From: an uncultured Verrucomicrobiota bacterium
GTDB lineage: Bacteria; Verrucomicrobiota; Verrucomicrobiia; Opitutales; Opitutaceae
DNA length: 35,144 nucleotides
Direction of reading: 5' to 3'
Assembly: GCA_903876795.1 (NCBI GenBank)
Contig: CAIRBK010000046.1
Span: 1-35,144, forward strand
Both the position numbers and the translations under genes were made by a program. Under the pieces are notes generated by a model. It worked only from the letters and a program-made list of their open reading frames with translations. It searched no databases and was not told the origin of the DNA. This document shows positions 3,653-35,144 of this stretch, one piece after another. Numbering within the stretch: the first letter of the stretch is position 1; every line of letters begins with the position of its first letter.

Positions 3653-3803
3653 GCGGCCAAGCAAAAACGGCCCGGGCGGGGGACGTCCATCCCAAACCGG
3701 CTGGCCCGGACCGGTGCCTGGGTGGGCCGTTGCTCCCGGCCCGGTCCCGCGTAGATCCGCCGGCTCCGAGCGCCGGGTCCGGATATCCGCGGAATGCGGT
3801 GTC

Positions 3804-18046: not shown

Positions 18047-18778
18047 TCAATCCCGTAACCCTACCTGCTCCTCATTGAGGCTTAGGCGCGTTACCATGAG
18101 GCGCGGATTCAAGCTAGGCAGCGAAGTAGTCGGCAGAATCGGCAGTGTGAAGGGAAACAACGCTTGGTTTGCCGTGAGTTGCTGGGTCGGCAGCGCGGAT
18201 TTCTGCGAAACTTTTAGTGCCGCCTCCAGCAACCACGCGGCGAGGTCGCCTTGGGTCACTTTCCGCGCCGCACCACGGGCGTATTCCTTCGTTTCCCCAT
18301 CGAGCTTGAGCACACCCCAATCGAGGATGCTGCTTAGGTTGTAGCGACCGACCCGGTCAACGAAGCCGCGATCTCCGGCCTTCTCGGTAAGTCGGCGCAC
18401 CAACTCAGCGGCGGTGAAGGACTCGTTGAGTCGGAGCAAGCGCCCGGTGTTTTCCGCACAGAGGGCGAAGAAGGAGTAGGATACCAAGGACAAGCCCCAC
18501 ACTAGCTCCAGGGAGTAGCGTTCGCCGTGTTCGCGATAGAGCCCCAGCGCGGCGGCGGTAAATGCCTCGTTTTCTTCGGTCGGGGCGAAGATCACTTGCC
18601 GGACGTTGGAAAGCGCCTTGGTGATCGCCACCTTGCCCTTGTTGGTTTCGGCGATGAGGTCCGACAGTGGCGCTCGTGCCGCCTCGAAGTCGGCTCCTGA
18701 TGCCCGCAAGCGAAGGGCGAGCGCGAGCCAATCGAGCCGGATCTTTTTTCCGAAACCTATGCGCTGGGTCGTGCTCAT
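18047..18778 (-). CDS. brxA: BREX type 3 BrxA-like protein (last gene of locus)
   Basis: Last gene of the BREX locus, 243 residues from the ATG at 18778. BrxA proteins (DUF1819 group) are small, mostly helical, DNA-binding in type 1 systems. Here the assignment rests mainly on position, since type 3 loci end with pglZ-brxA, and on a helical makeup with segments such as YSLELVWGLSLVSYSFFALC, LVRRLTEKAGDRGFVDRVGR and LSSILDWGVLKL. The start overlaps the pglZ stop by four bases (ATGA), so it is translationally coupled. A pairable CCTCAAT/ATTGAGG lies at the end, but no clear terminator. Direct sequence similarity to DUF1819 is not obvious by eye. Confidence 0.65.
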   Translation of the reverse strand: MSTTQRIGFGKKIRLDWLALALRLRASGADFEAARAPLSDLIAETNKGKVAITKALSNVRQVIFAPTEENEAFTAAALGLYREHGERYSLELVWGLSLVSYSFFALCAENTGRLLRLNESFTAAELVRRLTEKAGDRGFVDRVGRYNLSSILDWGVLKLDGETKEYARGAARKVTQGDLAAWLLEAALKVSQKSALPTQQLTANQALFPFTLPILPTTSLPSLNPRLMVTRLSLNEEQVGLRD

Positions 18779-20778
18779 GCTGCGCCCTCCTTATGCTTGC
18801 GGAATAGAACGAAGGGAACCGCCATCTCCTCCAAGGAGTCGCCACCGTGGCAAACGATGGTGCGGCCTTTGTCGGTGAACGCCTTCCCCTGCGGAGCGAT
18901 GACAGGGATGATGTTGGCCGGCAGGCCGGAGTGCCGCGCGATGCGGCTTCCCGGCACCGCTTTCACGCAGGCCTCAGCGAAGGTCGCGTCGTTGAATAGC
19001 CGATTTCGCTCCCCTCGACTTTCGCAGAGCACGCCTTGTTGCGGCGCACCGATGCCGGTTGCCTCGGTGTTGCCGTGATCTGCGGTGAGCGCGACGGTGA
19101 AGCCGTGGTGAAGCAGGGCGGCGAGCAGGGTTTGGAGTGCTTGGGTCTTGGCCCACTGCTCGACCTGATTGATCATGCCGGCACTGCCGAGCTGCATTCC
19201 GTGCATGATTTCGTCCACCTTGAACAGAGTGATGCCGAGCGCCTTGGTCTCCCCTGTTATTACTTCGACGGCGCGATCTTTGGTATCCTCGTCGCCGGGC
19301 GCCGCGATGAAGGCGATTTCGTGTTTCGCCAAACCGCGTCCGGCCCAGAATTGCCCCCAGCGTTTTTCGTCGTGGGAAGTTTGTTGGAGCGTATCCGCGA
19401 AATAGGAAGGCAGCTTGCCGCTGAAGACCGCTTGGCGCGAAATGGGCGTGATCGACGGCAGCCAAGCGAAGGTTGCGGTTTCTTCGATCAGCACGCCGGG
19501 CATTTCGGGCTGAAGGATCGCCTTGAGCGCCATCCATTGTTCTAGCGCGAGCCCGTCCACGAGCACCAAGGCCACTCGCTTGTCTTCGCCTCGTTCCAAG
19601 GCACGAGCGAGGCAGGCAGAAACGTGATGCACCATCGCGAGTGAAGCGGCGGGCTGATTGTAGAGACGCGGATAGTTGTCCCGCATCCAGCCGGAAAACT
19701 CCGTATCCAACGCGGAGCGGAGAGCGGTGTAGCGGGCGAGCAGCGATGCCTGAACTGCCTTCTCCGTCTTTAGCCAAAGCTGGCGAAGCTGGCCCCAGCG
19801 CAGCGCAAAAGCCTGCCATTCCGCGAGCGTCCCGGTAGCCTTGGGCAGCGCTTTGGCCAAACCATCGAGCAACTCCTCCAAACGGAGCGCCGGGTTTTGT
19901 TTTTCCGGGTCGAGCAGACCAACTCTCACCCAGCGTTCGGAAGACGCCTCTTTCCAATCCCACGGAATCGGCGCGAGGATGCCGTCGGCAAACAGGGTGT
20001 CGATAAACACACGCACGTCGTCATGCCCAAAAGGGAGCATGCGCGGGCCGGGCACGCGAAACGCGTCGGTGGTCGGCTCCGCCACCAGATCGCGGCCGCC
20101 ATCGGTTTTGCGGAGGAAAACCGGCCAGCGTTCTTGCAGGAAGAGCCAGAAAATCGCGCGCTCGCGGAGCAGTGTCTTGAGCGGCCAAGCATCGAAGCGC
20201 TCGCCTAGCACAGCCTCAAGGTAGCCGAGCAAAATCTCTGGGATCGGCAAACGGCGGTAGTGGAGCCGACACAGAAAAGTGAGGAGCTTGGGTTCGGAGT
20301 TCAGCGTCACCGGGTCTACCTCGAAGAGGTGCCGGAGCATGAACTCTTTGGTGAGCTTCTCCCCCATGCTCTGGTTGGCGTGGGCACTCTGGGCACGGTG
20401 CAACGCGTCGTAGAGCGACGCGTCGAGGTGGCGGATCACGTCGTAAGCGAGCTTGGGGAACAGGTCGTGCAGCGTGAGCGTGAGGCGGCGCGCGCGGGTC
20501 AGGACATCGAAGGGCAACGTCTCGAAGTCGCGTTCGCCGGGCGCGAAGGCGACGACTATTTCTATCGTCTCGCCTGCATCCCAACGGCTGCGAAAACGGG
20601 TCTCGTAATCGAGCCGGAACGACAGCGCTTCCTCGTAGAAGACGACGGCAAACCCTTTCTGCTCCAACGCGGCCAGCAAGCCGGGCTCGCGCAAGATGCC
20701 GTCGGAGTCGCACACCGCTGTCACCGGTTTGAGGCCGGGGACAAACTGCGAGAGGATAGATGCACGCCAATCGTTCAT
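18775..20778 (-). CDS. pglZ: BREX type 3 alkaline-phosphatase-fold protein PglZ
   Basis: Core BREX protein with an alkaline-phosphatase fold; required for defence, exact chemistry unsettled. From the ATG at 20778 it has 667 residues. The phosphatase-like part lies in the C-terminal half: metal-binding VALVLVDGLALEQWMALK (Asp408), ATFAWLPSITPISRQAVFSG (Thr444 region), LTADHGNTEATG (Asp567, His568) and IVCHGGDSLEEMAVPFVLFR (His644). The N-terminal half is helical and variable. The frame is open to 20856, but the brxHII stop overlaps the ATG at 20778 (ATGA), which fixes a coupled start. Its own stop overlaps brxA in the same way. All expected metal ligands that I can place are present, so this gene looks intact. 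Confidence 0.92.
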   Translation of the reverse strand: MNDWRASILSQFVPGLKPVTAVCDSDGILREPGLLAALEQKGFAVVFYEEALSFRLDYETRFRSRWDAGETIEIVVAFAPGERDFETLPFDVLTRARRLTLTLHDLFPKLAYDVIRHLDASLYDALHRAQSAHANQSMGEKLTKEFMLRHLFEVDPVTLNSEPKLLTFLCRLHYRRLPIPEILLGYLEAVLGERFDAWPLKTLLRERAIFWLFLQERWPVFLRKTDGGRDLVAEPTTDAFRVPGPRMLPFGHDDVRVFIDTLFADGILAPIPWDWKEASSERWVRVGLLDPEKQNPALRLEELLDGLAKALPKATGTLAEWQAFALRWGQLRQLWLKTEKAVQASLLARYTALRSALDTEFSGWMRDNYPRLYNQPAASLAMVHHVSACLARALERGEDKRVALVLVDGLALEQWMALKAILQPEMPGVLIEETATFAWLPSITPISRQAVFSGKLPSYFADTLQQTSHDEKRWGQFWAGRGLAKHEIAFIAAPGDEDTKDRAVEVITGETKALGITLFKVDEIMHGMQLGSAGMINQVEQWAKTQALQTLLAALLHHGFTVALTADHGNTEATGIGAPQQGVLCESRGERNRLFNDATFAEACVKAVPGSRIARHSGLPANIIPVIAPQGKAFTDKGRTIVCHGGDSLEEMAVPFVLFRKHKEGAA

Positions 20779-23579
20779 GCCGAGAAAACCTCCAACATGA
20801 GGAGCGGGTGAAGCTCGGGCAATAGATCGCGTTGGCGTTCGAGCTGAGCGCGCCACGCCAGACGCTCGCCTTCAAGCTGACGCAGACGGAACTGCCTCAC
20901 CTCCGGCAGACCGATTTCGCCCAAGAGTTTTGCGCGCACGCGGTAGCTGTATTCCCCCTTCTCCTCGTCTTGCTGCACTTGGGCGAGGTGACGGCTTTTC
21001 AGGTCGAAATAGACCTCGCGCAAAGTCTCGCGGGCTGCGGCGTTCGCCCTCTGGTAGGCCTCGGCCGAAGCCTCGGGCGCGAGCACGCCTGAGCAAGTCC
21101 ATGCGTCCATCATCAGCCGCTCGAAAAGGTATTTGGCGGTGGGTGCGAGATTGCGGCCATCGGCCTGCACGAACAGCGGACTGAGCCGGGCGCGGCTGCC
21201 GGTATCGGAGGAAATGCGAACCTCCCAGAGTGACCACACGCCGCGCAGACCGGCGGGCGCATCGGCGAGGCGAAGCGTCGGCACGGGAGCCCCGGCGGCG
21301 ACGCGCGGCAGTCGGGTGAGCATGGCGCGAACCTTGGGGTGCTCCAGGCTGAGGAGCGCGCCGCCCGGCACCGGTTCGCGGCCGGGCATGGTGTAGGTCT
21401 CGAACGCGGCTCCGCCGGGCCAGCGGATGCGCACCCGGTCTAGCTCGGCATCGAGCTGACCGTTGTAGCCCGCGAGGTAGTGGCCGACCATGCGCTCCAC
21501 CCAGTCAGCGATGGGGAGCTTGGGCGCGGTGTCGGGCTGAAAAGGCTCTGGGGCGGTGAGCACGCGGTTTTTCTCCTGCGCGTTACCCGCCTGCTGGCGA
21601 ATTTCCTCCGCCACGCGGCCGACCGTCTCGGGCACACGGTCGGGATGAAGCAAGGCCTCCAGATAAAGACGGTCGAAGAGTTTGCCGGCCTCGGCGGAGT
21701 CGAGCACGTCGCTGGTTTTATCCACACCCATATCGGCGAGGATGACGGCGAGCTTTTCCTCCAACACCTCGCGGACGCGGAACTCTACGGTATCGGCGAA
21801 GACGAAGTTGAAGGCGCGCACCGGATGTTTTTGGCCGATGCGATCCACGCGGCCGATGCGCTGCTCCATGCGCATGGGATTCCACGGAATGTCGAAATTG
21901 ATGATGACGTGGCAGAATTGCAGGTTCAGCCCCTCGCCGCCGGCATCGGTGGAGATAAGCACGCGCGTTGCTTTGCCAAAGGAGGCCTGCACCTGCTGCC
22001 GCTCCTCCATGCTCATGCTGCCGTTGAGGCGGACGGTGGAGATGCCGCGCGCACCGAGAAACTCGGCCAGCATTTCCTGCGTGGGCACGAACTCGGTAAA
22101 AATCAGCACCTTCATGTCCGGGTCGCTCTCGGCGCGTTCCAGATCGCGGATAAGGTCGATCAAAGCCTCGGCCTTGGCGTCGGCTCCTCCCGCCTCGACT
22201 TGGCGAGCGAGGCGGAGCAGGCCGTCGATTTCGCCGCGCTCGTTGGCCATGCCTTCACGCAACGCGGTGAAAACGATGTCGAGTTGTTCCTGGCCGTTGA
22301 GGTCGCTCCATTCGTCCTCCGGGTAGTCGGCGGGTATGGAAATGCCGCCGTGCGCCTTGGCCAGCGCGGGCAGGTTGGCTTCGTCGGACGCCGTGGTGAG
22401 CGCGGCGAGGCGCTTTTCCAGCGCCGTGCGGATCGCCCGCGTGGAGCTGGTGACGAGCCGCTGCATGAGGATCATGAGGAAGCCGAGCGCCGGCTTCCGG
22501 TCGCGCAGCGCTTGGTTGTAGCCGTGGCGCACGTAGCTGGTGACGGCCTCGTAAAGCTGTTCCTGGTCGGCGTGGGTGCCCCACTCCACGGGGCGGAGCT
22601 GGGTGAAGCGCGGCTTGAAGAGCGGTTGCCCGTCGGCGGTGACCGCCTGCCGTTTCTCGGTGCGGATGACGTAGGGCTGAACGCGTTCGCGGGTGACACT
22701 CTCCACCGCCGGGAACGCCTGCTTATCGAGCAAGGTGAGCAAGCGGTGGAAGGCGTCGGTTTTGCCTTGGTGGGGCGTGGCCGAGAGCAAGAGCAGGTAA
22801 GGAGCGGCCTCGGCCAAGCCCAAGCCGAGCTGGTGGCGGGCGACCTGCTCGGTGCTGCCGCCGAGGCGGTGGGCCTCGTCGATGACGATGAGATCCCAAC
22901 CGGCGGCGATTAGATCGTCGAAGCGGTCTTTGTTGTAGGCGGCGAGTTCCTCGGCCGTCCAACCGCGCCGTGCCTCCAGTGGCTTTACGGAATCGAGCGA
23001 ACAAATGACCTGGTCGCAGGCGCGCCACACATTGTCGCCGGGCACAACCTTGCGGAGGGTATCGAACTCCGCCGGGGCGAGGTGACGCAGCTCCTCGCCG
23101 AAGTGGATTTTCATCTCGGCCTGCCACTGCTTCACAAGGCCCTTGGGAGCGATGACGAGCACGCGACGCACGCGGCCCCGGAGCTTGAGTTCGCGGATGA
23201 TTAGCCCGGCCTCGATGGTTTTGCCGAGACCTACCTCGTCGGCGAGGAGGTAGCGCACGCGGTCGCCGGACACGGCGCGGCGGAGTGCGCGGATTTGGTG
23301 CGGCAGGGGGATGACGGCGCTATCGCTCGGCGCGAGGAGCACGTCCTCAAACGCGAGGTTGGCGAGCCGCGCGGCGCAGAGGGTGAACTTGACCCGCTCG
23401 ACGTGGCCTAGATCGGACGCCTCCAACGGGCGCACCTCGGAAGCGCGGACACGGACAAAGGTATCGTCCTGGGGGAGCCAGAGGCGCAAAGCCTCGTCGC
23501 CCCACAGGTCGAAGCGTTCCTCAACCTTAGCAGGTTGGCGGTGAGGAATGCTCCAGACCCATATGCCGGGCTCAACCAT
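20775..23579 (-). CDS. brxHII: BREX type 3 SNF2-like helicase BrxHII
   Basis: SNF2/RapA-like superfamily 2 ATPase of type 3 BREX, presumably a DNA translocase. From the ATG at 23579 it has 934 residues. Motif I is ADEVGLGKTIEAGL (Lys120), motif II is IVIDEAHRLG (Asp234), motif III is LLLSATPHQGK. The second RecA lobe has VLIFTEFVPTQEMLAEFL, STDAGGEGLNLQFCH and EQRIGRVDRIGQKH. A long C-terminal region of about 300 residues (LEALLHPDRVPETVGRVAEE and on) is typical of the BrxHII type. The ORF opens to 23621, but MVEPGIWVWS at 23579 fits better and gives an 8-bp overlap with the rloB-like stop. The stop overlaps pglZ (ATGA). Looks intact. Confidence 0.9.
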   Translation of the reverse strand: MVEPGIWVWSIPHRQPAKVEERFDLWGDEALRLWLPQDDTFVRVRASEVRPLEASDLGHVERVKFTLCAARLANLAFEDVLLAPSDSAVIPLPHQIRALRRAVSGDRVRYLLADEVGLGKTIEAGLIIRELKLRGRVRRVLVIAPKGLVKQWQAEMKIHFGEELRHLAPAEFDTLRKVVPGDNVWRACDQVICSLDSVKPLEARRGWTAEELAAYNKDRFDDLIAAGWDLIVIDEAHRLGGSTEQVARHQLGLGLAEAAPYLLLLSATPHQGKTDAFHRLLTLLDKQAFPAVESVTRERVQPYVIRTEKRQAVTADGQPLFKPRFTQLRPVEWGTHADQEQLYEAVTSYVRHGYNQALRDRKPALGFLMILMQRLVTSSTRAIRTALEKRLAALTTASDEANLPALAKAHGGISIPADYPEDEWSDLNGQEQLDIVFTALREGMANERGEIDGLLRLARQVEAGGADAKAEALIDLIRDLERAESDPDMKVLIFTEFVPTQEMLAEFLGARGISTVRLNGSMSMEERQQVQASFGKATRVLISTDAGGEGLNLQFCHVIINFDIPWNPMRMEQRIGRVDRIGQKHPVRAFNFVFADTVEFRVREVLEEKLAVILADMGVDKTSDVLDSAEAGKLFDRLYLEALLHPDRVPETVGRVAEEIRQQAGNAQEKNRVLTAPEPFQPDTAPKLPIADWVERMVGHYLAGYNGQLDAELDRVRIRWPGGAAFETYTMPGREPVPGGALLSLEHPKVRAMLTRLPRVAAGAPVPTLRLADAPAGLRGVWSLWEVRISSDTGSRARLSPLFVQADGRNLAPTAKYLFERLMMDAWTCSGVLAPEASAEAYQRANAAARETLREVYFDLKSRHLAQVQQDEEKGEYSYRVRAKLLGEIGLPEVRQFRLRQLEGERLAWRAQLERQRDLLPELHPLLMLEVFSA

Positions 23580-24297
23580 CGGCCTTTTGGGCGGGAGCGG
23601 CGGCAGCGCGAATCGCCGCAATCAGACGATCTACTTCGGTCGAGGGGTTGCAGGGAAACGTTGAGTTTCCAGCTCTGTGATAGTTGCGCACCCAAGCGGC
23701 GTTTGCCACCGCTCGCGCTAGCTCTGTTTGCTCTACTAGCGGAGGCATGAGAACTTTGGTCTCTTCGCCATGCTTGGTGTATTTTGTCTTTAAGGCTGCG
23801 GCCAATTTGGGAACCACGTTCTTACATTTCGCCATCGGCGAAGTGGTTCGGCCGCCCTCTAAATGTAAAAGTAACCAATATTCGAAACAGGGAGTGCTGT
23901 GGGCGCAGTTCACCTTCTTGCTAGCCGCAAACTGCAAGCCGTTGTTTAACTTGCCGTGTTCCTCGGGCACGTCGGTATCGAAAACAATCCAGATTTCGTC
24001 AAAATCCGGCACTTGCGAGTAGCCCGTCTCGCCATTTTTGAAAGCCTTGCGCCGTTTCGTTCGCTCCTCCAGCGCTGCTTCCGCCAGCCTCTGCGGATCG
24101 CCGATACCAGCGCCCTCGATGCACACCTCCACCGTGCTAAGGGCGAGTTTCTTCTTGAGCGCCTCGAAGTAGGCCGGTTCGGTGACTATCCCCTCCGTCG
24201 CGATGAGGATGCCTCGCGCAGGAGGTTTGATGCCGCGTTCCCGATGAAAGGAAGACGGCCTTGCAGAGAGCTTCTTGCGGTATTTTTCACTCCCCAT
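23572..24297 (-). CDS. rloB: RloB-like TOPRIM protein (AbiL-type second component)
   Basis: Resembles the RloB family, a TOPRIM-like putative nuclease that pairs with an RloA ATPase in phage-defence modules (AbiL-like). It has 241 residues from the ATG at 24297, which overlaps the RloA-like stop by 11 bp. Family features are IATEGIVTEPAYFEALKKKL (TOPRIM glutamate), IWIVFDTDVPEEHGK (DxD) and the HSTPCFEYWLLLHLEGG block seen across RloB proteins. The N-terminus is basic. The next gene, brxHII, starts within its last codons, so this pair is transcribed with the BREX genes although it is not a BREX component. Base composition is less GC-rich than in the flanking BREX genes. Confidence 0.85.
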   Translation of the reverse strand: MGSEKYRKKLSARPSSFHRERGIKPPARGILIATEGIVTEPAYFEALKKKLALSTVEVCIEGAGIGDPQRLAEAALEERTKRRKAFKNGETGYSQVPDFDEIWIVFDTDVPEEHGKLNNGLQFAASKKVNCAHSTPCFEYWLLLHLEGGRTTSPMAKCKNVVPKLAAALKTKYTKHGEETKVLMPPLVEQTELARAVANAAWVRNYHRAGNSTFPCNPSTEVDRLIAAIRAAAAPAQKADG

Positions 24298-25591
24298 GAT
24301 CGGTTCCTTTTCCTAGCAGGCCGGACGGGATAAAGGGCACGGCACCATAGCGCCCGGCCAAGTAGCCACGCACCAATGATTCCTTTTTACGTGGTTTATA
24401 ATCGGTCAGCGGATAGAGGTGGGTTGCGCCTTCATCGTCTTTGTCGGCGAACCATACCTGATCGCGCCGAAGCAGCGTCGGATCGAGCAAAAGCGGATTG
24501 TGGGTGGTGAAAAGCAACTGCGCACCATTCTTATTGTGTATATCGCTGAAAACGAGGCGCAACAGGGCCGTGACCATGGATGGATGGAGACTCGCCTCGA
24601 TTTCGTCGAAACTCACAATATAACCGTCACTCAGCATCTTGAGCCAACGTCCGGCCAAAGCAAAATAGCGCTGCGTGCCCGCCGACTGTTCGCCCCACGG
24701 GATTTGATACTCCTTACCGCCCGCCCCTCGGTGACCAAGCTGAATGTCATAGTCTTTGTTGTTTTTGATAATCTCTTCCACAACTGCGTCTGGAAACTGG
24801 GGGGGGAGATCTTCGCGACGAAGATCGCGCTCTTTCGCTTGAGCGGAGAGAATACCAAAGTCGGCGTGTTGAATGAACTTGGTGATCAGGTTCTTCGCAT
24901 TGGCGTTTTCGTTTAGGTAACGCACGGTGAAGCCGGGCGAAAGCGGAGGGAAATCCGACCCGAGCCGCATAAACGACAAGCGCGCTTTGAACCAAAGAAA
25001 AACAGGCTCTAGCTCTTTATTATTCCATTTGGCCGCTGTAGATAAAAATAGCGCGTTGTCGCGCGTGAACTCCACGATTTTGGCATCGCGCTTAAAATCC
25101 GTCGGGCGCTCTGGCTTCCACGAATAGGTCGAGGTTTCGTCGTTCCAGAGCCGCTCATACCAGACCTGCTCACGTCCCGTGGGGAAAGCGGAGAGAGACT
25201 CGTAGAGCACCCGAGTTTTGTTGAGCACCAGCACGAAGTGGTAGCGCACGCCCGCCGCCACGAAGCGGAGCGCCAATTCGGTCGGTTCGCCAACACTGGT
25301 CTCGTTGAGCAGGAACGGCTCAACTCCGGTAGGATCGCCGACATCCAGCTCCTTGGCCGAGTTCTCGACGAAGTGAGCCAGGAATTTAAGGGCGAAGAGG
25401 ACGTTGGTCTTACCCGCTGCGTTTGCCCCGTAAATAGCCACGCCTTTGAGGAGTTTGACGTTGTCCAGACCCGGTAATTTCGGGTCGATCACGTTCTCCA
25501 AAAGGGTCTTGTCGTAATTGCTCGCGACAAAACTTAGCCGCTGCTCTTCATTGAAGGAGCGGAAATTTTTGACCGTAAAGTCGATGATCAT
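24287..25591 (-). CDS. rloA: RloA-like AAA ATPase (AbiL-type first component)
   Basis: ABC-type AAA ATPase of the RloA/AbiLi group, related to OLD-family ATPases. It has 434 residues from the ATG at 25591. The N-terminus MIIDFTVKNFRSFNEEQRLS is the usual SMC-like first strand; Walker A is YGANAAGKTN (55-63); the signature region is EQSAGTQRYFAL (301-312); Walker B is IVSFDEIEASLHP (Asp329, Glu330); and the switch histidine is in TTHNPLLLD (362-370). RloA ATPases control a partner, here the RloB-like protein encoded 11 bp inside its end. It begins 76 bp after pglX, so it likely sits in the BREX transcript. Intact by motif. Confidence 0.88.
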   Translation of the reverse strand: MIIDFTVKNFRSFNEEQRLSFVASNYDKTLLENVIDPKLPGLDNVKLLKGVAIYGANAAGKTNVLFALKFLAHFVENSAKELDVGDPTGVEPFLLNETSVGEPTELALRFVAAGVRYHFVLVLNKTRVLYESLSAFPTGREQVWYERLWNDETSTYSWKPERPTDFKRDAKIVEFTRDNALFLSTAAKWNNKELEPVFLWFKARLSFMRLGSDFPPLSPGFTVRYLNENANAKNLITKFIQHADFGILSAQAKERDLRREDLPPQFPDAVVEEIIKNNKDYDIQLGHRGAGGKEYQIPWGEQSAGTQRYFALAGRWLKMLSDGYIVSFDEIEASLHPSMVTALLRLVFSDIHNKNGAQLLFTTHNPLLLDPTLLRRDQVWFADKDDEGATHLYPLTDYKPRKKESLVRGYLAGRYGAVPFIPSGLLGKGTDHGE

Positions 25592-25667: not shown

Positions 25668-27833
25668 CTAGCTCGCCGACGCGCCGGAGCGGAGGGCGGC
25701 GTTGTCGTAGAGCATTTGGAGTTGTTCGTCTTCGTTGAGCACGCTTTCGGGGAGCATGTCGGCGACGGCGAGGATGGTGTAGTAATCCTTGCTTTGGTAA
25801 CAGTATTTGAACCCCACCCGGATCGCCTCGGTGCGGACTTCGCGGAGTTTCTTTGACCTCGGGACTTTGGGGCGCGGGGTGGCGGCGGCCATTCCGGGCA
25901 AGGTGGGGGCCTTGTCGGGGTTGCGGGCGGCGGAGATGTAGCCTTCGGGCAGGTAGAGCCAAAACTCTTCGAGCAGGCGTTTGTTGCGCAGGGTCTCCAC
26001 GTCGATGTTCTTCTTGGGATCGGGCACATACCACCGATCCTTGGCCTTGTGGCGGAGCTGGGCGTGATCTTTGTCGAGGTTGCGCAGCTCTTTGAACTGC
26101 GTGCTCAGGTAGCTGTGAATCTGGCTCGGGACTTCGCCCACGCCGTCGTAGCAGAGGAAGTTTTGATCGAGCAGGACGCGCAATTCAGGGCGAGCTTCCC
26201 ACTTCTTCCAGCTGGCGCTGAGTTGCTGCATGAAATCGGGAGTAATGTCGCCGGAGGTCGAGGGGCGCTCTTTGATATACTGGCGCACCCAGTCGATGGC
26301 GGTGCGTTCGTCTTCCACGAAGATGGCAAGCTGGCCGACTGAATCCATCTGCAAACGTTTCTGATCGTAGAGGTGGGCTTGTTCGGGGAGATACCATTTT
26401 TCGTCCCGCTCGACGAAATGCTCGCCGAGTCCTAGTTGGAACTCCGCCGAGGAGAGCGGGACGGGGGTCGAGTGCCCGAGATAGAAGGCGATCATCCGAT
26501 CATGGAGAATACGCGGATCGCGTTCGGCGATGGGGACAAGCTGACCGCCCTTGATCTTTACCACCGGGAGATTCTTCAAGTGCGTGCGGACGAAATCCCA
26601 AACGCCCGCGACCGTAGAGCCGGTCTTGGCAAACCGATCCTCAAGCCCCCCGTTGGGTTTGTAGGCTGAAATAACTAAGTCCTGCTTTACGGCCGTGGTC
26701 GTGGTGACTGAGCGGAAACTCCGTTGCTGTTTGTCGAGCGCGGCAACATTGGCCACGACGAAGCCGGCTTGCTGCAACGTGGTGTGAATGGAGTTCCATA
26801 CCGCTGCTTGAGAATTAGAGAACTCCACCGTCATCCAACGTCCCGGCTTTAGGATTCTATAAAATTCCTGAAAGCAACCGAGCATCAACCCCTGATACTC
26901 TGGAAGCTCCTTTCCTTTAGGGGCGTCGATAATTGCTTCGGTCTTTGTTTGGGTCGCTACGCCATGCCATGACTCAATCAGGAGATTGAGGTCGGAATAA
27001 GGGATGTTTTCACCGAAGGGAGGATCAGTGAAGATATAATCTAAGCATCCGTCGGGAAGTGTTAAGGCATCGGCCGAACCAGTGTTTATTAGGGAAATTT
27101 CACGATTGAATCGGGTCAGGCGGAAGACGCTTGCAAGGCGGTCTAGCTTTCCGTCGAGAACATACCACGGGCTACATTCAGAATGCTGAGATGCGATATA
27201 ATAGACGCCGCTAAGCGTTCTGTTTACCTGAGAGAAATGAGACGGGCTGTAGCGATTCATACGCGAAAGCCCCCAAATCGCTTGTTCAACGAAGAACAGT
27301 AGCATTTGGCGGATTCGCCCATCTCTGTGTTGTTCGGCTTTTAGCCAAAGCGCACCAAGAGATTGAGCCGCTCGGGGAAGAAAAAACTGATGAGTATGGC
27401 TAAAGCCTTTGGGCTCAATACGAGAGCCATGATACATCTGCTCAATGGGCCAACGGTTCGACGGTATGATGGAAGGCCACGGGAGATTCTCGATCTTGGT
27501 CAAAAGTGCCAAGTCACTTTGATCCGGCACCTTCTCGTGCTTCACTTTGCCGACACGGTATTGGATTAAGCACGGCTTGAATTTAACCCGTTTCCAAGGG
27601 GTTTTAAGAACCGGATCGATAGTCGCCTCCAGGACGCGGTCGAGTTTGCGCTTCGTGAGCGGTGCGGTGCAATGGGGACAAGGAAACTCGGCTTTCACGC
27701 CGCCCGTATCCTCGTCGGTCGCTTCTTCCGTGAAGGTCAATTCGCTACCGCATTCCGGGCAGGTAAAAACCTCGCTCCACACCGTGTAATCTATCCGGCG
27801 TTTCGAGCCGTCGGTGTGTTTGGTTTCATACAT
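25668..27833 (-). CDS. pglX: BREX type 3 methyltransferase PglX, C-terminal part after in-frame stop
   Basis: C-terminal 721 residues of the adenine-specific DNA methyltransferase PglX (PglXI type). In BREX it marks host DNA so that unmodified phage DNA is attacked. A zinc-ribbon-like CPECGSELTF with a second CPHC pair comes first, then a second catalytic-type motif FTDPPFGENIPYSDLNLLIE and the strand RWMTVEFSNS. The reading frame from the N-terminal part (27918-28538) continues unbroken into this one, apart from one TAA at 27918-27920; the 28 codons between that stop and this ATG also read sensibly (NYNTPVNADAFETEATRLLK). The ATG at 27833 lies in the middle of the family sequence (GWMYET) and has only a weak ribosome site. 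As an independent protein it would lack motif I, so activity alone is unlikely. Confidence 0.85.
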   Translation of the reverse strand: MYETKHTDGSKRRIDYTVWSEVFTCPECGSELTFTEEATDEDTGGVKAEFPCPHCTAPLTKRKLDRVLEATIDPVLKTPWKRVKFKPCLIQYRVGKVKHEKVPDQSDLALLTKIENLPWPSIIPSNRWPIEQMYHGSRIEPKGFSHTHQFFLPRAAQSLGALWLKAEQHRDGRIRQMLLFFVEQAIWGLSRMNRYSPSHFSQVNRTLSGVYYIASQHSECSPWYVLDGKLDRLASVFRLTRFNREISLINTGSADALTLPDGCLDYIFTDPPFGENIPYSDLNLLIESWHGVATQTKTEAIIDAPKGKELPEYQGLMLGCFQEFYRILKPGRWMTVEFSNSQAAVWNSIHTTLQQAGFVVANVAALDKQQRSFRSVTTTTAVKQDLVISAYKPNGGLEDRFAKTGSTVAGVWDFVRTHLKNLPVVKIKGGQLVPIAERDPRILHDRMIAFYLGHSTPVPLSSAEFQLGLGEHFVERDEKWYLPEQAHLYDQKRLQMDSVGQLAIFVEDERTAIDWVRQYIKERPSTSGDITPDFMQQLSASWKKWEARPELRVLLDQNFLCYDGVGEVPSQIHSYLSTQFKELRNLDKDHAQLRHKAKDRWYVPDPKKNIDVETLRNKRLLEEFWLYLPEGYISAARNPDKAPTLPGMAAATPRPKVPRSKKLREVRTEAIRVGFKYCYQSKDYYTILAVADMLPESVLNEDEQLQMLYDNAALRSGASAS

Positions 27834-27917
27834 CCAACCTAACTCGGTTTCGACTTCCTTCAGTAGTCGGGTGGCCTCGGTCTCGAATGCGTCGGCATTA
27901 ACAGGCGTATTGTAATT

Positions 27918-27920
27918 TTA
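27918..27920 (-). other. In-frame TAA within pglX
   Basis: Codon 207 of the frame that starts at 28538. It separates SPVASFIA from NYNTPVNADAF with no shift of frame, so one base change would restore a 956-residue protein. Confidence 0.8.
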
Positions 27921-28538
27921 GGCGATGAAGGAAGCGACCGGCGAAAGATCGTTTATGACGACCCGTCGGGCACCAAGTTTTGAAATCGCCTTACCTTCCT
28001 CATCCAAAATTGTGCCGTCTTCTTGCACGCGGTAGCCCAGTGCCTGAACCTCGGCGCGATCACCACAATACTTAGCCGCCACGCCGGTCATGCCAGTGCC
28101 GCAAAAGCCATCAAAGACCACGCCGCCCGGCTCTGTATAATGAAGAATATACTTCATGATAGCCCGGTGGGGCACTTTTGTGTGATAGGAGTGTGCGCCG
28201 TAGATTGGATGATTTTTGCCTTCGCTGACATCCGCCGCGAACGGCTCCCGGTGGTAGGGCTTTTTCGGATCGTAGGCCGTGCCGTAGTGCTTGACGAAGT
28301 CGGCGAGCCAAGGATTGGGGCAGGCGGTGTAGTAAGGCGGATCGGACAGGGCGAGGATGGCCTCGTCGGTGCCGAGGGGAAAGCCCTCGATCTGACGAAA
28401 CGCGGACTCCTTCAACTTCGCGGCGAGGAGTTTTAAGAAATGCTCCCGCCGGGCTTCTTCGGAGGGAAAGCTCTGCCCGAGGCACTCGACCGGCCCGGTC
28501 TTGGCGGTAGAAAGGTTGAAGGAGGATTGGTCAGACAT
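27918..28538 (-). CDS. pglX: BREX type 3 methyltransferase PglX, N-terminal part before in-frame stop
   Basis: First 206 residues of PglX, from the ATG at 28538. It holds a DPPYYTACPNPW motif (66-77) and the S-adenosylmethionine-binding motif VFDGFCGTGMTGVAA (141-155). It ends at NDLSPVASFIA followed by TAA. Type 3 PglX proteins are one chain of about 900-1000 residues; the combined frame 25668-28538 is 957 codons including this stop, so a single protein is the ancestral state. The fragment would carry the cofactor site but none of the target-recognition region. The start lies 265 bp after the HEPN gene, in a stretch with an inverted-repeat element. Whether this is a true mutation or a sequence error cannot be told from one copy. 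Confidence 0.85.
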   Translation of the reverse strand: MSDQSSFNLSTAKTGPVECLGQSFPSEEARREHFLKLLAAKLKESAFRQIEGFPLGTDEAILALSDPPYYTACPNPWLADFVKHYGTAYDPKKPYHREPFAADVSEGKNHPIYGAHSYHTKVPHRAIMKYILHYTEPGGVVFDGFCGTGMTGVAAKYCGDRAEVQALGYRVQEDGTILDEEGKAISKLGARRVVINDLSPVASFIA

Positions 28539-28563
28539 TATAAATAAAGAGGATCGGAGTTTT

Positions 28564-28667
28564 TAACCACGGATTACACGGATAACACGGATTTTTAGGA
28601 GGATACGGAGGTTCGGAATTAAGATTGGGGGCTTGGTATCCGTGCAATTCGTGTAATCCGTGGTAAA
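28564..28667. repeat. Imperfect inverted-repeat element between HEPN and pglX genes
   Basis: Arms ACCACGGATTACACG (28566-28580) and its exact complement (28650-28664) lie 69 bp apart; allowing about three mismatches the arms reach 27 bp. Inside the left arm ACACGGAT recurs in tandem. Such CACGGAT-rich palindromic elements occur between genes in several environmental phyla. It is only 26 bp upstream of the pglX start and could fold in the transcript. Confidence 0.7.
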
Positions 28668-28685
28668 ACGGTTTTGGGGGCTGAG

Positions 28686-28803: not shown

Positions 28804-29244
28804 TTAGGCGAGGGTGGGATGTTTTTCGCTGAGCCATGATTCCACCGTGGCACGGAGTTCGGCGGCGAAAGCCACCAATTCTCGGGCTTCCTCGGGGCTG
28901 ATGTGGCCGGCGGAGTCGTATTCGGCGGTGTTGCGCTTGCTGCGGCAGGTATCGAGGTAATCGGCGTCGTCTTGCCGGTCCGTGCCGAGGATGAGCGGCA
29001 GGGCTTGCAGGGTGCGGTAGTGGGCGAGGGTTTTTTCCGGCCGGTAGCCCTCGGCGTAGAGTAGGATGGTGCAGAGCTTGAGCGCGGCGTTATAGGCGAT
29101 GCCAAACTGCCAGTCGGGGGAGAGGCGCTCGGTGCGGGCGTCGTCGAGGTCGCGCTCCACGATGGCGAACAGCTCGGCGAGCTGGGCGCGGTTGGTGCGG
29201 TGGGGGCGGAGCCAGCCGTTTTTAGACCATTGTTCCAAGCTCAT
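28804..29244 (-). CDS. HEPN-domain protein, partner of adjacent nucleotidyltransferase
   Basis: A helical protein of 146 residues from the ATG at 29244, which has AGGAG at good distance. Its start overlaps the nucleotidyltransferase gene end by 23 bp, the usual arrangement of MNT/HEPN toxin-antitoxin pairs. The HEPN-like core is LSPDWQFGIAYNAALKLCTI (helix with conserved Asn/Ala) and CRSKRNTAEYDSAG. HEPN toxins are RNases with an R-x4-6-H motif. Here Arg104 is followed by NTAEY with Tyr109 but no histidine in the expected place, as in UPF0332-like members. It may therefore be a weak RNase or a binding subunit. It lies inside the BREX locus, between brxC and pglX, and is not a known BREX core gene. 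Confidence 0.72.
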   Translation of the reverse strand: MSLEQWSKNGWLRPHRTNRAQLAELFAIVERDLDDARTERLSPDWQFGIAYNAALKLCTILLYAEGYRPEKTLAHYRTLQALPLILGTDRQDDADYLDTCRSKRNTAEYDSAGHISPEEARELVAFAAELRATVESWLSEKHPTLA

Positions 29245-29806
29245 CGGCTCCTCCTATGATCCAGAGTTTGGGTCCGGCCAGAACCGTGGTGACGAAGGCG
29301 TCGCCGGAGCGTGCCTTGGCGGAAAGGGTGTCGGGGGCGAGCACATGGGGGTTGATCTCGCGTCCCAAGGCTTCGGCGACTGGGCGAAGGCGCGGGGCGA
29401 GCGCACGCAGCCCGACGCTGCCAACGAGCAGTAAATCCACGTCGCTGGCGGCACCCGCTGTGCCAGAGGCTTGGGAGCCAAAGACGAAGGCGAGGCGCAC
29501 GCCAGCGAGGCCGACGAGCGCCGTCACCAGTCGCTCGCGCAGGCCGGTGGTCTTGAGCGCAAGACCTTGCAGCTCGGGAAACACCGGGTGGGAGGTATTG
29601 GCGCGGTAGTAAAGCCGGTTGCCGTCGCGCCGGGCAACGATCAGCTCGGCGGCGGCGAGTTTGCGCACCTCGGCTTGCAAGGTGCCGAGCGCGAGCTGGC
29701 TGAGACGAGATAACTCACGCAAGTGCAGCTCCTTGCCGGGGTCGGCAAAGAGCAGGCGCAGCACCTCGGCGCGCACTTGCGGGAAAAGTATGGTGAGGAC
29801 ACTCAC
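29222..29806 (-). CDS. Winged-helix and nucleotidyltransferase (MNT) fusion protein
   Basis: A 194-residue two-domain protein from the GTG at 29806. Residues 1-75 form a winged helix-turn-helix (VRAEVLRLLFADPGKELHLR, then LSRLSQLALGTLQAEVRKL and a wing GNRLYYRAN). Residues about 100-155 form a minimal nucleotidyltransferase with the signature VFGSQASGTAGAASDVDLLL (Gly110-Ser111, Asp122 and Asp124). MNT proteins of this kind can AMPylate and silence a HEPN partner, encoded next with 23 bp overlap. The attached DNA-binding domain suggests autoregulation; a dyad AGCATACGGACGTATGCT lies 19-36 bp upstream. The function in this locus, antitoxin or BREX regulator, is inference. Confidence 0.82.
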   Translation of the reverse strand: MSVLTILFPQVRAEVLRLLFADPGKELHLRELSRLSQLALGTLQAEVRKLAAAELIVARRDGNRLYYRANTSHPVFPELQGLALKTTGLRERLVTALVGLAGVRLAFVFGSQASGTAGAASDVDLLLVGSVGLRALAPRLRPVAEALGREINPHVLAPDTLSAKARSGDAFVTTVLAGPKLWIIGGADELGTMV

Positions 29807-30240: not shown

Positions 30241-33200
30241 TCAGGCGAGGACGATGCGGACTTTTTTCTCGTCGCGACCTTTGAGCAGGGTGTCGAGGTG
30301 CTCGTGGAGGCGGCGGCGGAACTCCTCGGGGGTGGCGGGGCTGCCATCGGGGAAGAGCGCGGTCTTTAGCGCGCCGACATCAAGGGTGAGCTTGGTGAGG
30401 CCGGACAGCGCCTGCTGGAGGGCGTCGATGAACTCCTTACTGACGATTTCTGGCAGTTGGCCGGAGGTGACAAACTCGTTGAGGAGCTTTTTCTGGGCGG
30501 GCTTGAGCAGGTCGAGGTTGGCCTTGGTGGTGGGATCGTCGCGCAGGTCGGAGAGCAGGGACTTGTTCCAAGCTTCGTGGATGCGGGCGAGTTCGGCGGT
30601 GAGGTGCTGGAGCCGGGCCTCGGCGGAGGAGGCGGCGGCGGGCTCCATGCGCGGCCAGAAATCGGCCTGCGGCTCGGCATCGAAATCCTTCTCGGTGAGT
30701 GGGCGGCCGGTCTTGAGATCGGTGAGCTGTTTCTCGAACTCGTCGAGCTGGGCGCGGTTGATAACCTCGACGACGGCTAGGCGGCGGAGGGCGACGGTGC
30801 GCTCGTCCTTCATGAGCGCTTCCTTGGCCTTGTCCTGCGCGATGCTGAGGCGGGCGCGGCGGTAAAGCTCCAGGTAGGCCTTCACGTAGTCGGCCTTGAG
30901 CTTTTTCAGGTCTTTTTCGAGCTGGGCCTTGAACGCGGCGGACTCGCGGTTGGCAGGTTCGCGAACCTCGGTGCGGAGCCGGGTGCGGGTTTTTTCGCTG
31001 GCGGCGACCCACGGGTGGTCTTCGGGCAAGATGGCCTCGGCCTGGCTGAGGTAGGAGGTGAGCTGGCTAACCTCGCGGATGAAGCGCTCAAGTGATTCGA
31101 CCTCGGCGAGACGGGTGAAGGCGGGCTTGTGCGCCTCGATGTCCTTGGCGGCGGTGTGGAAGTTTTTGAGCTTACCGGGGGTGTTGTAGGCTTGGAGACT
31201 TTCGAGGAAGTCCTTGCAGCGCTGCATGGTGTCGCCGAGCTGCTGCATCTCGGAATCCGAGTAGAGGGTGACGCCCCAGAAAGGCAGACCGCCGAGAAGC
31301 TGCTGGCGCGCAAGGACGAGTTTCTCGACCCGCTCGGTGATGGTTTTTTGCGACTGTTGCACGGGCACCGGATCACCCTGGGTGACCTGCACGGCGAGGC
31401 CGGGCGCGAGACCGAGCAACTCGAAGAGCGCGCGGAGACCGACGACGTTCCAATCCTTCGGCTTTTCGAGGTGTTTGAAAACGGCGAGGTCGGCGACGGG
31501 CGTGGTGGCGAGCCCGGTGAGGTTGGTAGCGTCGAACTTCACGCCGGGGAGCGACAGGACGGCCTGCCCCTCGTAAACGAGGGCGGCGGCGAGCACGGCG
31601 ACCCAGATCGGTTCCAGCCGGAAGGCGTCGGGCGCCATGTAGTCCACGCTGTGCTCGACGGTGGTGATAATCTCGGAGCGGTTGAGCACCTGGCCCTGCC
31701 CCTTGGCGTCGAGCTTATCGACCAAGAACCGGGCGGCGGGCGAAGCGGCGGAGGTAATGCGGTCGCCGTCGAGGAGACCGAGGGCGTCGAGGACGGCGTT
31801 GGCCTGCTTGGAACGCGTGGACAGGCTGAGGCCCCGGAGCGCTTCTTGGGCGGCCTGGGTGGCGTTGCCGTCGCGCCCGTAGGTGATGAGCGTGGAGAAG
31901 ACCGGATACTGCGGGGCGGCGTTGTGGAACTGCCCGGCGAGACAGACGGAGCCGACGAGATTGACCGAATCGCGGATGGTGAGCGAACCGCTGCCGCCCG
32001 CGCCCTTGAGCCAGTTGAGGAGGGTTTTTTTGGAGCCCTGGTAGGTGACGGTGACGGCGGAAAGCAGGTGCTCGCGGAGCCACTTGGTGAGGCGAAGGAG
32101 ATGCTCGGCGGCCTTCTTTTCGTAGATCTGCTTCTTCCCGCCCGAGGAGGTGGAGGCGAGTTCGAGGGCACCGGCGTAGAGTTTTAGGGCCTGGATGAAC
32201 TCGGGCTGCTTATCGTCGAGACGGAAGAACACCTCGTCGCCGCGTTTCTCGTCGGAGAACTTGGGCGGGTCGAAAGGCTGGATGAAATAGAGATAGAACT
32301 CGCGGGCAGGGACGGCGGTGGAGCGCTCGTTGGGCGCGCCGAAGAAGAGATAGCCGAGGCGACCGGCCTTGTGCTCGCGCCACTCCACCTCGTGTTGCCA
32401 AATCTGGTAGCCGGTGACGTGGGTGGGCACATCGGTGCATTCCATGACCTGCCGGAGCGCGTCGTAGTAGAAACGGTCGAGGGTGGCGTCGTCGAGGGAG
32501 TCGGAACGCTTCTCGATGAGCGCGTCGTAGTCGTCGGTCTTGCGCAGATCGAGGAACCATTGGCGGTTGTCGAGCTGGTTGGTGAGGAACTGGCCGCTTA
32601 CGGTTTTGTGGATCTCCCGCAAGGTGTGTTCCACCACGGTGAGAAGGTCGTCGGCCGGATCGCCGCCGAGGTCGGCCGCGCCGGGGTGATAGAGGCACAG
32701 GTGATCGCGTAGCTCCTCGGGCGTGAGGCCGAGCGGGGCGTGGATGTCGCCGGTAGTGAGGCGGTGGACAGACAGGCCGCGAATGATGCGGACGGCCATA
32801 GGACGGTAGGTCTTTTTGGGCAGGGCACTCTGAACCCTGGACTCCAGCGTGCCGCTGCAATCCATGATGGCTTTTACGTCGGGATTGGCCCGATGGGCGG
32901 CGTTGTCGATGATCGCCTCCCAATAGCTATCGTAGGCGAGGATGCCGGGACGGTCGGTGGGAACGGCCTGACCGACGAGAGTCTTGATTGCCTGAGAGAT
33001 GATTTGCAGGACGCCGCGTTTCTCAACGATGGGGATGCGCTGGAAGGTATCGACGTAGTCGGGATGAATGGGAAACAGCGCGCAAAACTCATCCATGCGT
33101 TCGGTCATGCCGCCGTAGAATTTGGCGTAGGGCGCGAGGTAGGCGCGAACCTGCTCCATCTGCGCGGGAGTTTTTTGGAGGAGGCGCTGGGAGACGACGA

Positions 33201-33957
33201 ACTTCACGTCGGTCGTGACGATCTTAACCTGTTGGAAACGATCCTTCACGCGGCCCAGGGTATCGGCCACATGGGCGAACCGTTGGCTGTCGAAAATCGC
33301 TTCTTGGACGCCCGCCATGATGCGAAAACGGAGATCCTTGCAGACCTCGCCCAACTCGCGGAGGAAGCCGAGATCAAGGATGAGTTCCTGGTCTTTTCTG
33401 CTGCGGAGGTAGTCGAGCAACTCGTCCACGACGAGGAGCAAACCGTGGTTGGGGTGCTTCTTTTGGAACGCCGCCATCATGTCCTCGATGGCGGTCTTGT
33501 TTTCACGAACCTTGTCGGCAGGGGGGAAGTTGAAGGGGCAACCCCACTCCTCCATCGCCTCTTGCAGATGCCCGCAAATGATGTCGCGCAGCCCCATCGT
33601 GACCGCGCCGATTTCGATACGCTTCACCTTAAAGCGTCCGGCGATGGTGCCGGCGGCGACGCGAACGAGCGGGTTAGCGAAAAGATCGGCGAGCGAGGCG
33701 TCCTCGGCAACGGCGGAGACGACGGACATCAAGTGGGACTTACCGGTGCCGTAGTTGCCGACGATGAGCAGGCCGCGGTTGTCGTTGTGCTGGTCGTATT
33801 GGAGCTGGGGGAAAATGAGTTCGTTCAGCCGTTGCGCCATCGGATCGGAGATGACGTAGGTCGAAACGAGGGTCTTCGCTGCGTCTTATTTATCCGCGTC
33901 GCGAAGTTGGATGACCGACTCAATGGGGTGAAACTGAACGAGATCCTGATAGTTCAT
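30241..33957 (-). CDS. brxC: BREX type 3 P-loop ATPase BrxC (DUF6079), interrupted by in-frame TAA at codon 24
   Basis: Large P-loop ATPase of BREX, the type 3 form belonging to DUF6079. The natural start is the ATG at 33957, directly after the brxF stop (TAAATG). It reads MNYQDLVQFHPIESVIQLRD then ADK, a TAA at 33886-33888, and continues in the same frame with DAAKTLVSTYVISDPMAQRL. The rest is open to the TGA at 30241, 1199 codons from the internal ATG at 33840. Walker A is LIVGNYGTGKSH (about residues 66-75 of the full frame), followed by SVVSAVAEDASLADLF. A LLLVVDELLDYLRS strand near residue 175 fits Walker B. The long C-terminal part has helical, coiled stretches. Initiation at 33840 would keep Walker A but lose 39 residues, and no ribosome site is visible there. 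Confidence 0.88.
33886..33888 (-). other. In-frame TAA within brxC
   Basis: Codon 24 of the frame that starts at 33957. Flanking codons GAT AAA before and GAC GCA GCG after read as conserved family sequence, so one base change would restore the gene. Confidence 0.8.
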
Positions 33958-34449
33958 TTAGGTCTGGTAGAAAGAGGGAATGCCTGCGGAAAGCGATGCG
34001 ACCGTTAAGCCCGAAAGTGGCCGTGAAATATATTCGGGATGATCGGGGTAGGCGCGGATATAGCGACCGTTGGCGAACTCGCCGGTAAACGCGGCGATGA
34101 CGAGACGATGCTGGCTAAGTTGGGCCACCAGACGCAGCGGATCGCACTGTAGCTCCGGTAAAAAGAGCAGGTCGAGATTGTCGAGGGCGAGACCGGTAGC
34201 GCCGGGAGGCAATAGGCCTGACAGGATGCGAGAGAGCGCGAGTGGACGCTGGCGCGCAGAGACATTGGCTAGTGCGGCGGCCAAATCCGAGCCGACGGAG
34301 ACGTAGCTCAGCGAATGGCTGTCTGAAATGGCGCGCAGCAAAGCAGTCTTGCCCGAGCCGGTCGGGCCAAGCGCCAATACGAGGCGTTCCTTGGCATGAC
34401 TGGCTTGGCGCAGGATTGTGGTAAAATCCTCTGCGTGAAGACTCGGCAT
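33958..34449 (-). CDS. brxF: BREX type 3 P-loop protein BrxF
   Basis: First gene of the type 3 BREX locus; a small P-loop protein of unknown biochemical role. From the ATG at 34449 it has 163 residues; a GTG at 34455 is also in frame. Walker A is LALGPTGSGKTALLRAI (P-loop at 28-35) and a Walker-B-like strand is ATGLALDNLDLLFLPEL. Size and position directly before brxC match BrxF. The stop TAA is followed at once by the brxC ATG, so the two are coupled. No Shine-Dalgarno is obvious; two dyads with GCCCGAT half sites lie upstream and may control the operon. Confidence 0.85.
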   Translation of the reverse strand: MPSLHAEDFTTILRQASHAKERLVLALGPTGSGKTALLRAISDSHSLSYVSVGSDLAAALANVSARQRPLALSRILSGLLPPGATGLALDNLDLLFLPELQCDPLRLVAQLSQHRLVIAAFTGEFANGRYIRAYPDHPEYISRPLSGLTVASLSAGIPSFYQT

Positions 34450-34464
34450 AAACACGCAAAAAAT

Positions 34465-34680: not shown

Positions 34681-35144
34681 TTAGCTGCCGGTGACCTTGC
34701 GGGCGCAGACGGAGGAGGTGACGCGGATGTCTTCCGACCAATCGACGGCGAGGATGTCGGAGCGGGCGGAGTCCTCGCGATACATGCGAACCACGTCCAC
34801 GCCGCCGCGACGCAGGCGGAAGGTTTTCATGAAGCTGGGATCGTAGAGCGTGGGGCTCTGGCTGGCGTGGAAGATCACCAATTGCTGGCCGATGATGTTC
34901 ACGTTGGCCTTGGCCGCGCCGAGCTTGGCGGTGTCCTTGGCGAGGATGCCGACGCGGATGTCGATGCTCGGATTGAGCAGGAGCGAAGAGAACTGCGACA
35001 TGGTGACGCCGACGGAGGCCGCGCCGGGGAAACGGGCGATGACCTTGGCGTTGTTGCGAAGCTTATTCCAAAGCGGCAGGCCGATGACGAGACGGTTGGG
35101 CATGCGGCCGGTGTCGGTGGCGAGCGCCTCGATCTGCTCGTCGA
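34681..35144 (-). CDS. Phage major-capsid-like protein, C-terminal part
   Basis: Partial: the frame is open to the right edge (EQIEALATDTGRMPNRLVIG), so the ATG at 35103 is internal. About 154 codons are visible. The pattern resembles the C-terminal half of an HK97-like/protein-E-type phage capsid: TGRMPNRLVIGLPLWNKLRN, then VRVGILAKDTAKLGAAKANV-like strand region, IIGQQLVIFHAS (the usual WG-x-x-LL position), and RMYREDSARSDILAVDWSED at the end. Neighbouring phage genes are not visible. It may be part of a prophage or satellite next to, or carrying, the BREX locus. Assignment is by pattern only. Confidence 0.55.
   Translation of the reverse strand, partial: DEQIEALATDTGRMPNRLVIGLPLWNKLRNNAKVIARFPGAASVGVTMSQFSSLLLNPSIDIRVGILAKDTAKLGAAKANVNIIGQQLVIFHASQSPTLYDPSFMKTFRLRRGGVDVVRMYREDSARSDILAVDWSEDIRVTSSVCARKVTGS

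Follow-up and report, generated by a model that had tools for sequence, protein, structure and literature searches.

Introduction

Loss of BREX through disruption of the methyltransferase gene pglX is already in print. Such disruptions are called frequent in PMC9122589, and PMC9716671 describes pglX as interrupted in diverse microorganisms (citing Goldfarb 2015) and, in the type 1 BREX of Ca. Regnicoccus MAGs, as either truncated or present as two partial genes. The cases in these two sources share with the locus described here a broken BREX methyltransferase gene among other BREX genes that remain. Two further systems are close in other respects. For StySA BREX of Salmonella strain ER3625, PMC9009780 holds mutations in brxC and pglZ responsible for the lack of restriction and modification, so that, as in our case, two BREX genes of one locus are mutated. 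In the Streptomyces Pgl system pglX is phase variable, and here too BREX is off at the methyltransferase gene (PMC9122589).

The locus we analysed lies in a window that is the whole of one 35,144-nucleotide contig (C46) of a draft genome (3.57 Mb, 103 contigs, 98% complete, 2.16% contaminated). Like type 3 BREX (brxF-brxC-pglXI-brxHII-pglZ-brxA) it has all six genes present on one strand, but it differs in having one TAA each in pglX and brxC and two inserted accessory gene pairs. We consider it probable (roughly 0.74) that two point nonsense mutations, at pglX codon 207 and brxC codon 24, have recently put this type 3 BREX out of action. The Ca. Regnicoccus system is of type 1, whereas ours is of type 3 with a single-codon stop and a second stop in brxC (PMC9716671); the StySA lesions are in brxC and pglZ and were shown genetically, whereas ours are in pglX and brxC and are read from sequence only (PMC9009780); and switching in Streptomyces Pgl is reversible, whereas neither a repeat array nor a second pglX copy was seen at the stops in the window (PMC9122589). 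In the open literature searched we found no description of just this locus, a type 3 BREX with two stops; it is a new case of a kind of loss that has been described before.

A type 3 BREX gene set on one strand

All six genes of the type 3 set lie together on the minus strand, in the order brxF, brxC, a PDC-M05 gene pair, pglX, an AAA_21/RloB-like pair, brxHII, pglZ and brxA. The type 3 BrxF and PglZ models of NCBIfam both score above cutoff: brxF (33958..34455) matches NF033453 and is named BrxF by PADLOC, and pglZ (18775..20856) matches NF033449 BREX_PglZ_3 as well as PADLOC PDLC02558 (profile positions 1-664 of 666). The helicase gene brxHII (20775..23621; PDLC02500, positions 2-928 of 933) and brxA (18047..18778; PDLC02444, positions 4-248 of 251) are, like pglX, named as BREX by PADLOC and by no NCBIfam model, and brxA has no Pfam match either. 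For brxC (30241..33957, its TAA read as X) the general NCBIfam BrxC model falls below cutoff (80 against 400 bits), and PADLOC BrxC PDLC02482 and Pfam DUF6079 match strongly. The initial annotation had judged brxF, brxHII and pglZ to look intact, and this holds: each is open and matches its PADLOC family over most of the profile, as does brxA. The uninterrupted pglX and uninterrupted brxC that would be expected of type 3 BREX are what this locus lacks.

Both accessory pairs, identified by profile matches, are likewise on the minus strand. PDC-M05A/PDC-M05B (28804..29806) sits between brxC and pglX; it has weak MntA-antitoxin and HTH matches below cutoff, and tblastn gave no match to it in 34 related loci, many of which are cut short. 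The second pair (23572..25591), an AAA_21 ATPase (AbiLi/AriA-like) with a RloB-like protein, sits between pglX and brxHII and recurs in the same place in one of the 34 loci (L040, a Bacteroidia MAG, at about 2910 to 4700). An imperfect inverted repeat (28562-28592 and 28638-28668; 31-nt arms, 87%) lies between the PDC-M05 pair and the pglX start, and a search of the genome for an 18-nt piece of this repeat gave a single site when no mismatch was allowed. Upstream of brxF the neighbouring gene is an ORF that the contig end cuts short (34681-35144, minus strand); it resembles a family of phage major head proteins (phrog_1005, E 1e-16), so that the BREX locus adjoins phage-like sequence.

In-frame stop codons in pglX and brxC

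At window positions 27918-27920 the plus strand reads TTA, which is TAA on the minus strand, and this TAA stands in one frame between ...VVINDLSPVASFIA and NYNTPVNADAFETEATRLLKEVETELGWMYET..., as codon 207 of 956 counted from the ATG at 28538. Upstream of it is an ORF of 206 amino acids (27921..28538, minus strand) that holds the first DPPYY, an FxGxG-type motif (DGFCGTGMTG) and a core strand at residues 192-197 (strand placement from an AlphaFold2 model, below). Downstream is a reading frame of 749 codons and a stop (25668..27917, minus strand) with a four-cysteine region, DPPF, the remainder of the methyltransferase core and a C-terminal region. In the PADLOC PglXI profile (PDLC02541, length 919), positions 12-204 align with the upstream ORF (E 5e-100) and positions 206-856 with the downstream frame (E 2e-274). 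On this reading of the sequence pglX is one protein with a single codon interrupted and no sign of insertion or deletion; an indel or frameshift origin of the break was rejected, the profile being contiguous across one codon. The minus-strand reading and the profile match both confirm the TAA at codon 207 that the initial annotation had reported. Its description of the two parts as a cofactor-binding half and a recognition half is only roughly right, since DPPF (residues 505-508), the C-terminal region and five of the core's later strands in the model also belong to the downstream part. The next ATG after the stop is at 27833, 84 nt or 28 codons further on.

The second TAA that had been noted in brxC of the same locus is also present, at 33886-33888 on the minus strand, as codon 24 counted from the ATG at 33957. 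A restart at the ATG at 33840, 45 nt past this stop, would give a product that lacks 39 residues and keeps the Walker A motif GNYGTGKSH. No indel is apparent in pglX or brxC. By eye, no close Shine-Dalgarno match precedes the restart ATGs at 27833 and 33840, nor does one precede the normal pglX and brxC starts, and its absence at the restarts is therefore no argument against reinitiation.

Comparison with related loci

We compared the two genes by tblastn with 34 related loci from the genome collection, counting matches of more than 60 residues; the figures for L016 and L017 are the same, and a single genome supplied both the L038 and the L046 contig. The best matches in named genomes are to MAGs titled Candidatus Didemnitutus, Pedosphaera, Akkermansia and Opitutaceae. 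None of the 34 loci has a stop in its pglX match. The column of pglX codon 207 is covered in 33 of them (L022 does not reach it), and every one has a residue there: 22 Tyr, 3 Ser, 3 Arg, 2 Ala, 1 His, 1 Gly and 1 Asn. For brxC codon 24, 17 of the 18 covering loci have a residue (9 Ser, 8 others) and the remaining one a gap; no stop occurs among them. All 14 aligned relatives, which were picked for matching from residue 1, retain the first 40 residues of BrxC; in other loci the match starts at residue 1 (L017, L025), 4 (L042), 6 (L044) or only 98 (L018).

A scan of 387 genomes of the phylum, the window's own included, gave seven pglX matches at E 1e-60 or better, again with its own included, and the other six contain no stop. 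Plasmid matches comprise six records, all below 60% identity, five of which match over at least 80% of PglX, each in one piece as judged from match extent. The possibility that the two pglX ORFs are normally separate genes, which the initial annotation had named as a finding that would overturn its reading, is ruled out by these comparisons, as no relative examined in the 34 loci or the phylum scan is split at or near codon 207. A family-conserved ORF carrying a stop absent from its relatives is the pattern of a pseudogene, here probably as a recent nonsense allele. Stops seen in pglZ of L014, L028 and L023 were not counted as interruptions, as each precedes the conserved start or falls at the extreme end.

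Neither viral contigs, plasmids nor the 94 nearest genomes yielded a closer copy of the locus by which the stops could be dated; those 94 genomes, the window's own included, hold no other full-length pglX copy, and one order-level genome (G082) has fragments only. Each species is represented by a single genome in the whole-genome sets that were scanned.

Sequence constraint and private changes

Where the other rows are invariant in pglX, the window differs from them at 0 of 51 columns before the stop and 2 of 86 after it; for 26 relatives the corresponding ranges are 0-6 and 0-8. At columns conserved at 92%, the window deviates at 3 of 84 before and 8 of 161 after the stop (relatives, 0-14 and 0-29). 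At the invariant brxC columns after the stop, the window deviates at 2 of 149, eleven of the 14 relatives at 0-3, and three distant ones at 13, 26 and 87.

Relative-rate comparisons were made for nine outgroup/sister pairings, of which four were used (outgroup L015 or L016, sister L014 or L028). Against sister L028, private amino-acid changes in the window and in the sister number 84 and 102 for pglX and 92 and 96 for brxC with outgroup L015, and 88 and 81 for pglX and 104 and 95 for brxC with outgroup L016. The intact brxHII gives 58 and 58 (L015) and 57 and 63 (L016) in the same comparison. One comparison points the other way: against sister L014, pglX has 120 changes in the window and 58 in the sister with outgroup L015. 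This is not repeated with outgroup L016 (68 and 72), and pglX may therefore have a separate history in the window/L014 pair. The other five pairings, with pglX counts of 100 v 96, 100 v 70, 120 v 87, 84 v 111 and 122 v 64, were left out for two reasons: in brxC, brxHII, pglZ and brxA, L014 and L028 resemble each other more than either resembles the window, and L015 is no sister.

Judged from these alignments, either the lesions look recent or both genes look to be still under selection, and a functional gene would likewise be free of further decay. Of the four options that the initial annotation had offered, decay or relaxed selection has the strongest support, because a nonsense codon breaks a family-conserved ORF and a lesion of the same kind is present in a second core gene, but the word decay overstates its age, since nothing else tested in pglX or brxC looks eroded.

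Genome background of the stops

That pglX and brxC are otherwise as constrained as in relatives is also compatible with a consensus error or a population mixture, in which one or both TAAs would be an assembly artefact or a minority allele and BREX would be intact, and the draft state of the genome (103 contigs, 98% completeness, 2.16% contamination) leaves room for this. To assess the background rate of interruptions, we took the ORFs in 800 kb of G002, a genome of the same genus, and matched them to 1.06 Mb of the window's genome, with the window itself in the set. Matches were kept if they did not overlap and reached at least 50% identity and 100 residues, and any stops within 8 residues of a match end were left uncounted. 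The 122 matches retained cover 45,408 codons and contain two raw stops, and no query was split into two kept pieces. One raw stop precedes the ATG where conservation begins and the other is in a frame opposite a better-scoring open frame; we judged both (a 5' leader and an antisense shadow ORF) not to be interruptions. Genuine interruptions thus number 0 in 45,408 control codons, whereas pglX and brxC together have 2 in 2,194 codons. A simple calculation gives 0.002 as the probability that both stops would fall in these two genes, a figure that is illustrative only as the stops were chosen because they had already been noticed. The control reaches genes shared with G002 at this threshold, among which there will be few defence genes or none.

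TAA is a normal stop in this genome, ending 70 of 302 long ORFs sampled, and none of the 42 tRNA genes found, all of them typed and with no Ile tRNA among them, reads a stop codon. Taken together, the clean control and the lack of a suppressor among these tRNAs argue against recoding and against a generally error-rich assembly, though not against error at these two codons in particular. Genome-wide recoding of TAA was rejected on the tRNAs found and the control, with about 30% of the genome sampled and an incomplete tRNA set, and the earlier proposal of error-rich sequence finds no support in a control free of genuine interruptions. For an error or mixture confined to this locus, two independent errors, both creating stops inside one locus, would be a coincidence, and no indel accompanies either; we regard this explanation as improbable, yet as the foremost competitor of recent inactivation. 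Two codon-composition scans over 0.66 Mb of the genome (206 and 59 candidate in-frame stops listed) were not used as evidence: their lists contain many antisense and gene-junction cases and the stricter scan missed the known pglX stop, and the same-genus control was used in their place.

Position of the pglX stop in the protein model

We modelled read-through PglX with AlphaFold2, using an alanine placeholder at residue 207 and 27 sequences (mean pLDDT 82.7, pTM 0.70). In this model residue 207 lies inside a helix (residues 200-210, pLDDT about 87-91) directly after strand 192-197; its neighbour N208 is near-invariant and Y209 is invariant. According to a 2026 survey (PMC12839542), the methyltransferases of type 3 BREX carry, between core strands 2 and 3, an insert of about 250 residues that serves target recognition and bears a four-cysteine motif, and they have HTH-like domains at the C-terminus. 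PglX of the window fits this plan, with invariant C260, C263, C287 and C290 followed by DPPF at 505-508. In the model, strand 192-197 is read as core strand 2, in which case the stop would cut the catalytic core ahead of the insert, and neither half would be a domain. A PDB fold search returned general methyltransferase matches and added nothing.

These features bear on whether the two parts of each gene are made separately, by reinitiation at the ATGs at 27833 and 33840, and work as split proteins. Downstream ATGs do lie 84 nt (pglX) and 45 nt (brxC) past the stops, conserved columns are kept downstream of both, and BrxC would lose only 39 residues and retain Walker A. A naturally split methyltransferase would be expected to show a split common to relatives or one at a domain boundary, whereas the pglX break is inside a modelled core helix, beside N208 and Y209, and none of the relatives examined is split. 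A restart at 27833 would also drop PglX residues 207-235, and the BrxC N-terminus that would be lost is kept in the 14 relatives chosen for matching from residue 1. Reassembly of split proteins, another option raised earlier, is disfavoured by the core-helix break, the distance of 28 codons to the next ATG and the lack of split relatives, and we think it quite unlikely.

Phase variation and regulated silencing as unlikely alternatives

Still less probable is that the TAAs belong to a reversible switch or to programmed readthrough. For the type 2 system of Streptomyces, phase variation of pglX has been observed, and it is suspected to be more widespread (PMC9122589). The same stop codon appears in both lesions, and the arms of a single weak inverted pair (33 nt, 73%) lie within brxC and ahead of brxF, although this pair is probably a chance occurrence. 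Against this, the stops look like substitutions, no tandem array overlapping either codon was found, the genome has no second pglX but only a distant relative on contig C54, and there is no suppressor among the tRNAs found. Neither a repeat tract nor an invertible segment nor a further pglX copy, the marks of a phase-variable pglX, was detected at the locus or in the genome. TAA accounts for 130 of the 353 one-step nonsense changes available in pglX and 98 of the 343 in brxC, so that finding TAA twice calls for no particular explanation. A standing reversible off-state of a costly BREX, in which most cells would be silenced and rare readthrough or revertants would supply PglX and BrxC under phage pressure, would explain the constraint downstream of both stops if true, but we hold it to be highly improbable.

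Expected consequences of the probable recent inactivation

Under recent inactivation by two nonsense mutations, ribosomes would be expected to stop at PglX residue 206, and the resulting fragment, without the remaining methyltransferase core and the target-recognition insert, would provide no active methyltransferase. Modification and restriction both depend on the methyltransferase in type 1 BREX, and it is from type 1 that the need for PglX and BrxC is known; by analogy, the locus should give neither modification nor restriction. The brxC stop may be partly bypassed by a start at the ATG at 33840 that keeps the ATPase motifs, and for this reason we take the pglX lesion to be the decisive one. 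Bypassing the pglX break would be harder: the restart codon lies 28 codons further on, and a product begun there would be without residues 1-235.

If real, this would be a further natural BREX locus silenced at the methyltransferase, in the less explored type 3, and one in which two core genes are hit while the accessory defence pairs of the same locus stay open. It would also make gene presence alone an unsafe basis for calling a BREX active, as a list of ORFs shows a brxC of 1199 amino acids and a pglX of 721 amino acids. With the pglX stop ahead of the recognition insert, the genome should lack the corresponding methylation mark.

The same genome has a second cluster of BREX-like parts, on contig C54 (L125:2798-16616), whose best PADLOC hits are HmaC/DUF499, HEC-09, an HmaB/DUF1156 methyltransferase (a 997-amino-acid ORF), PifA and a PLD-type helicase. 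This cluster might have relaxed selection on the broken BREX, and it would confound a methylome test of the BREX locus.
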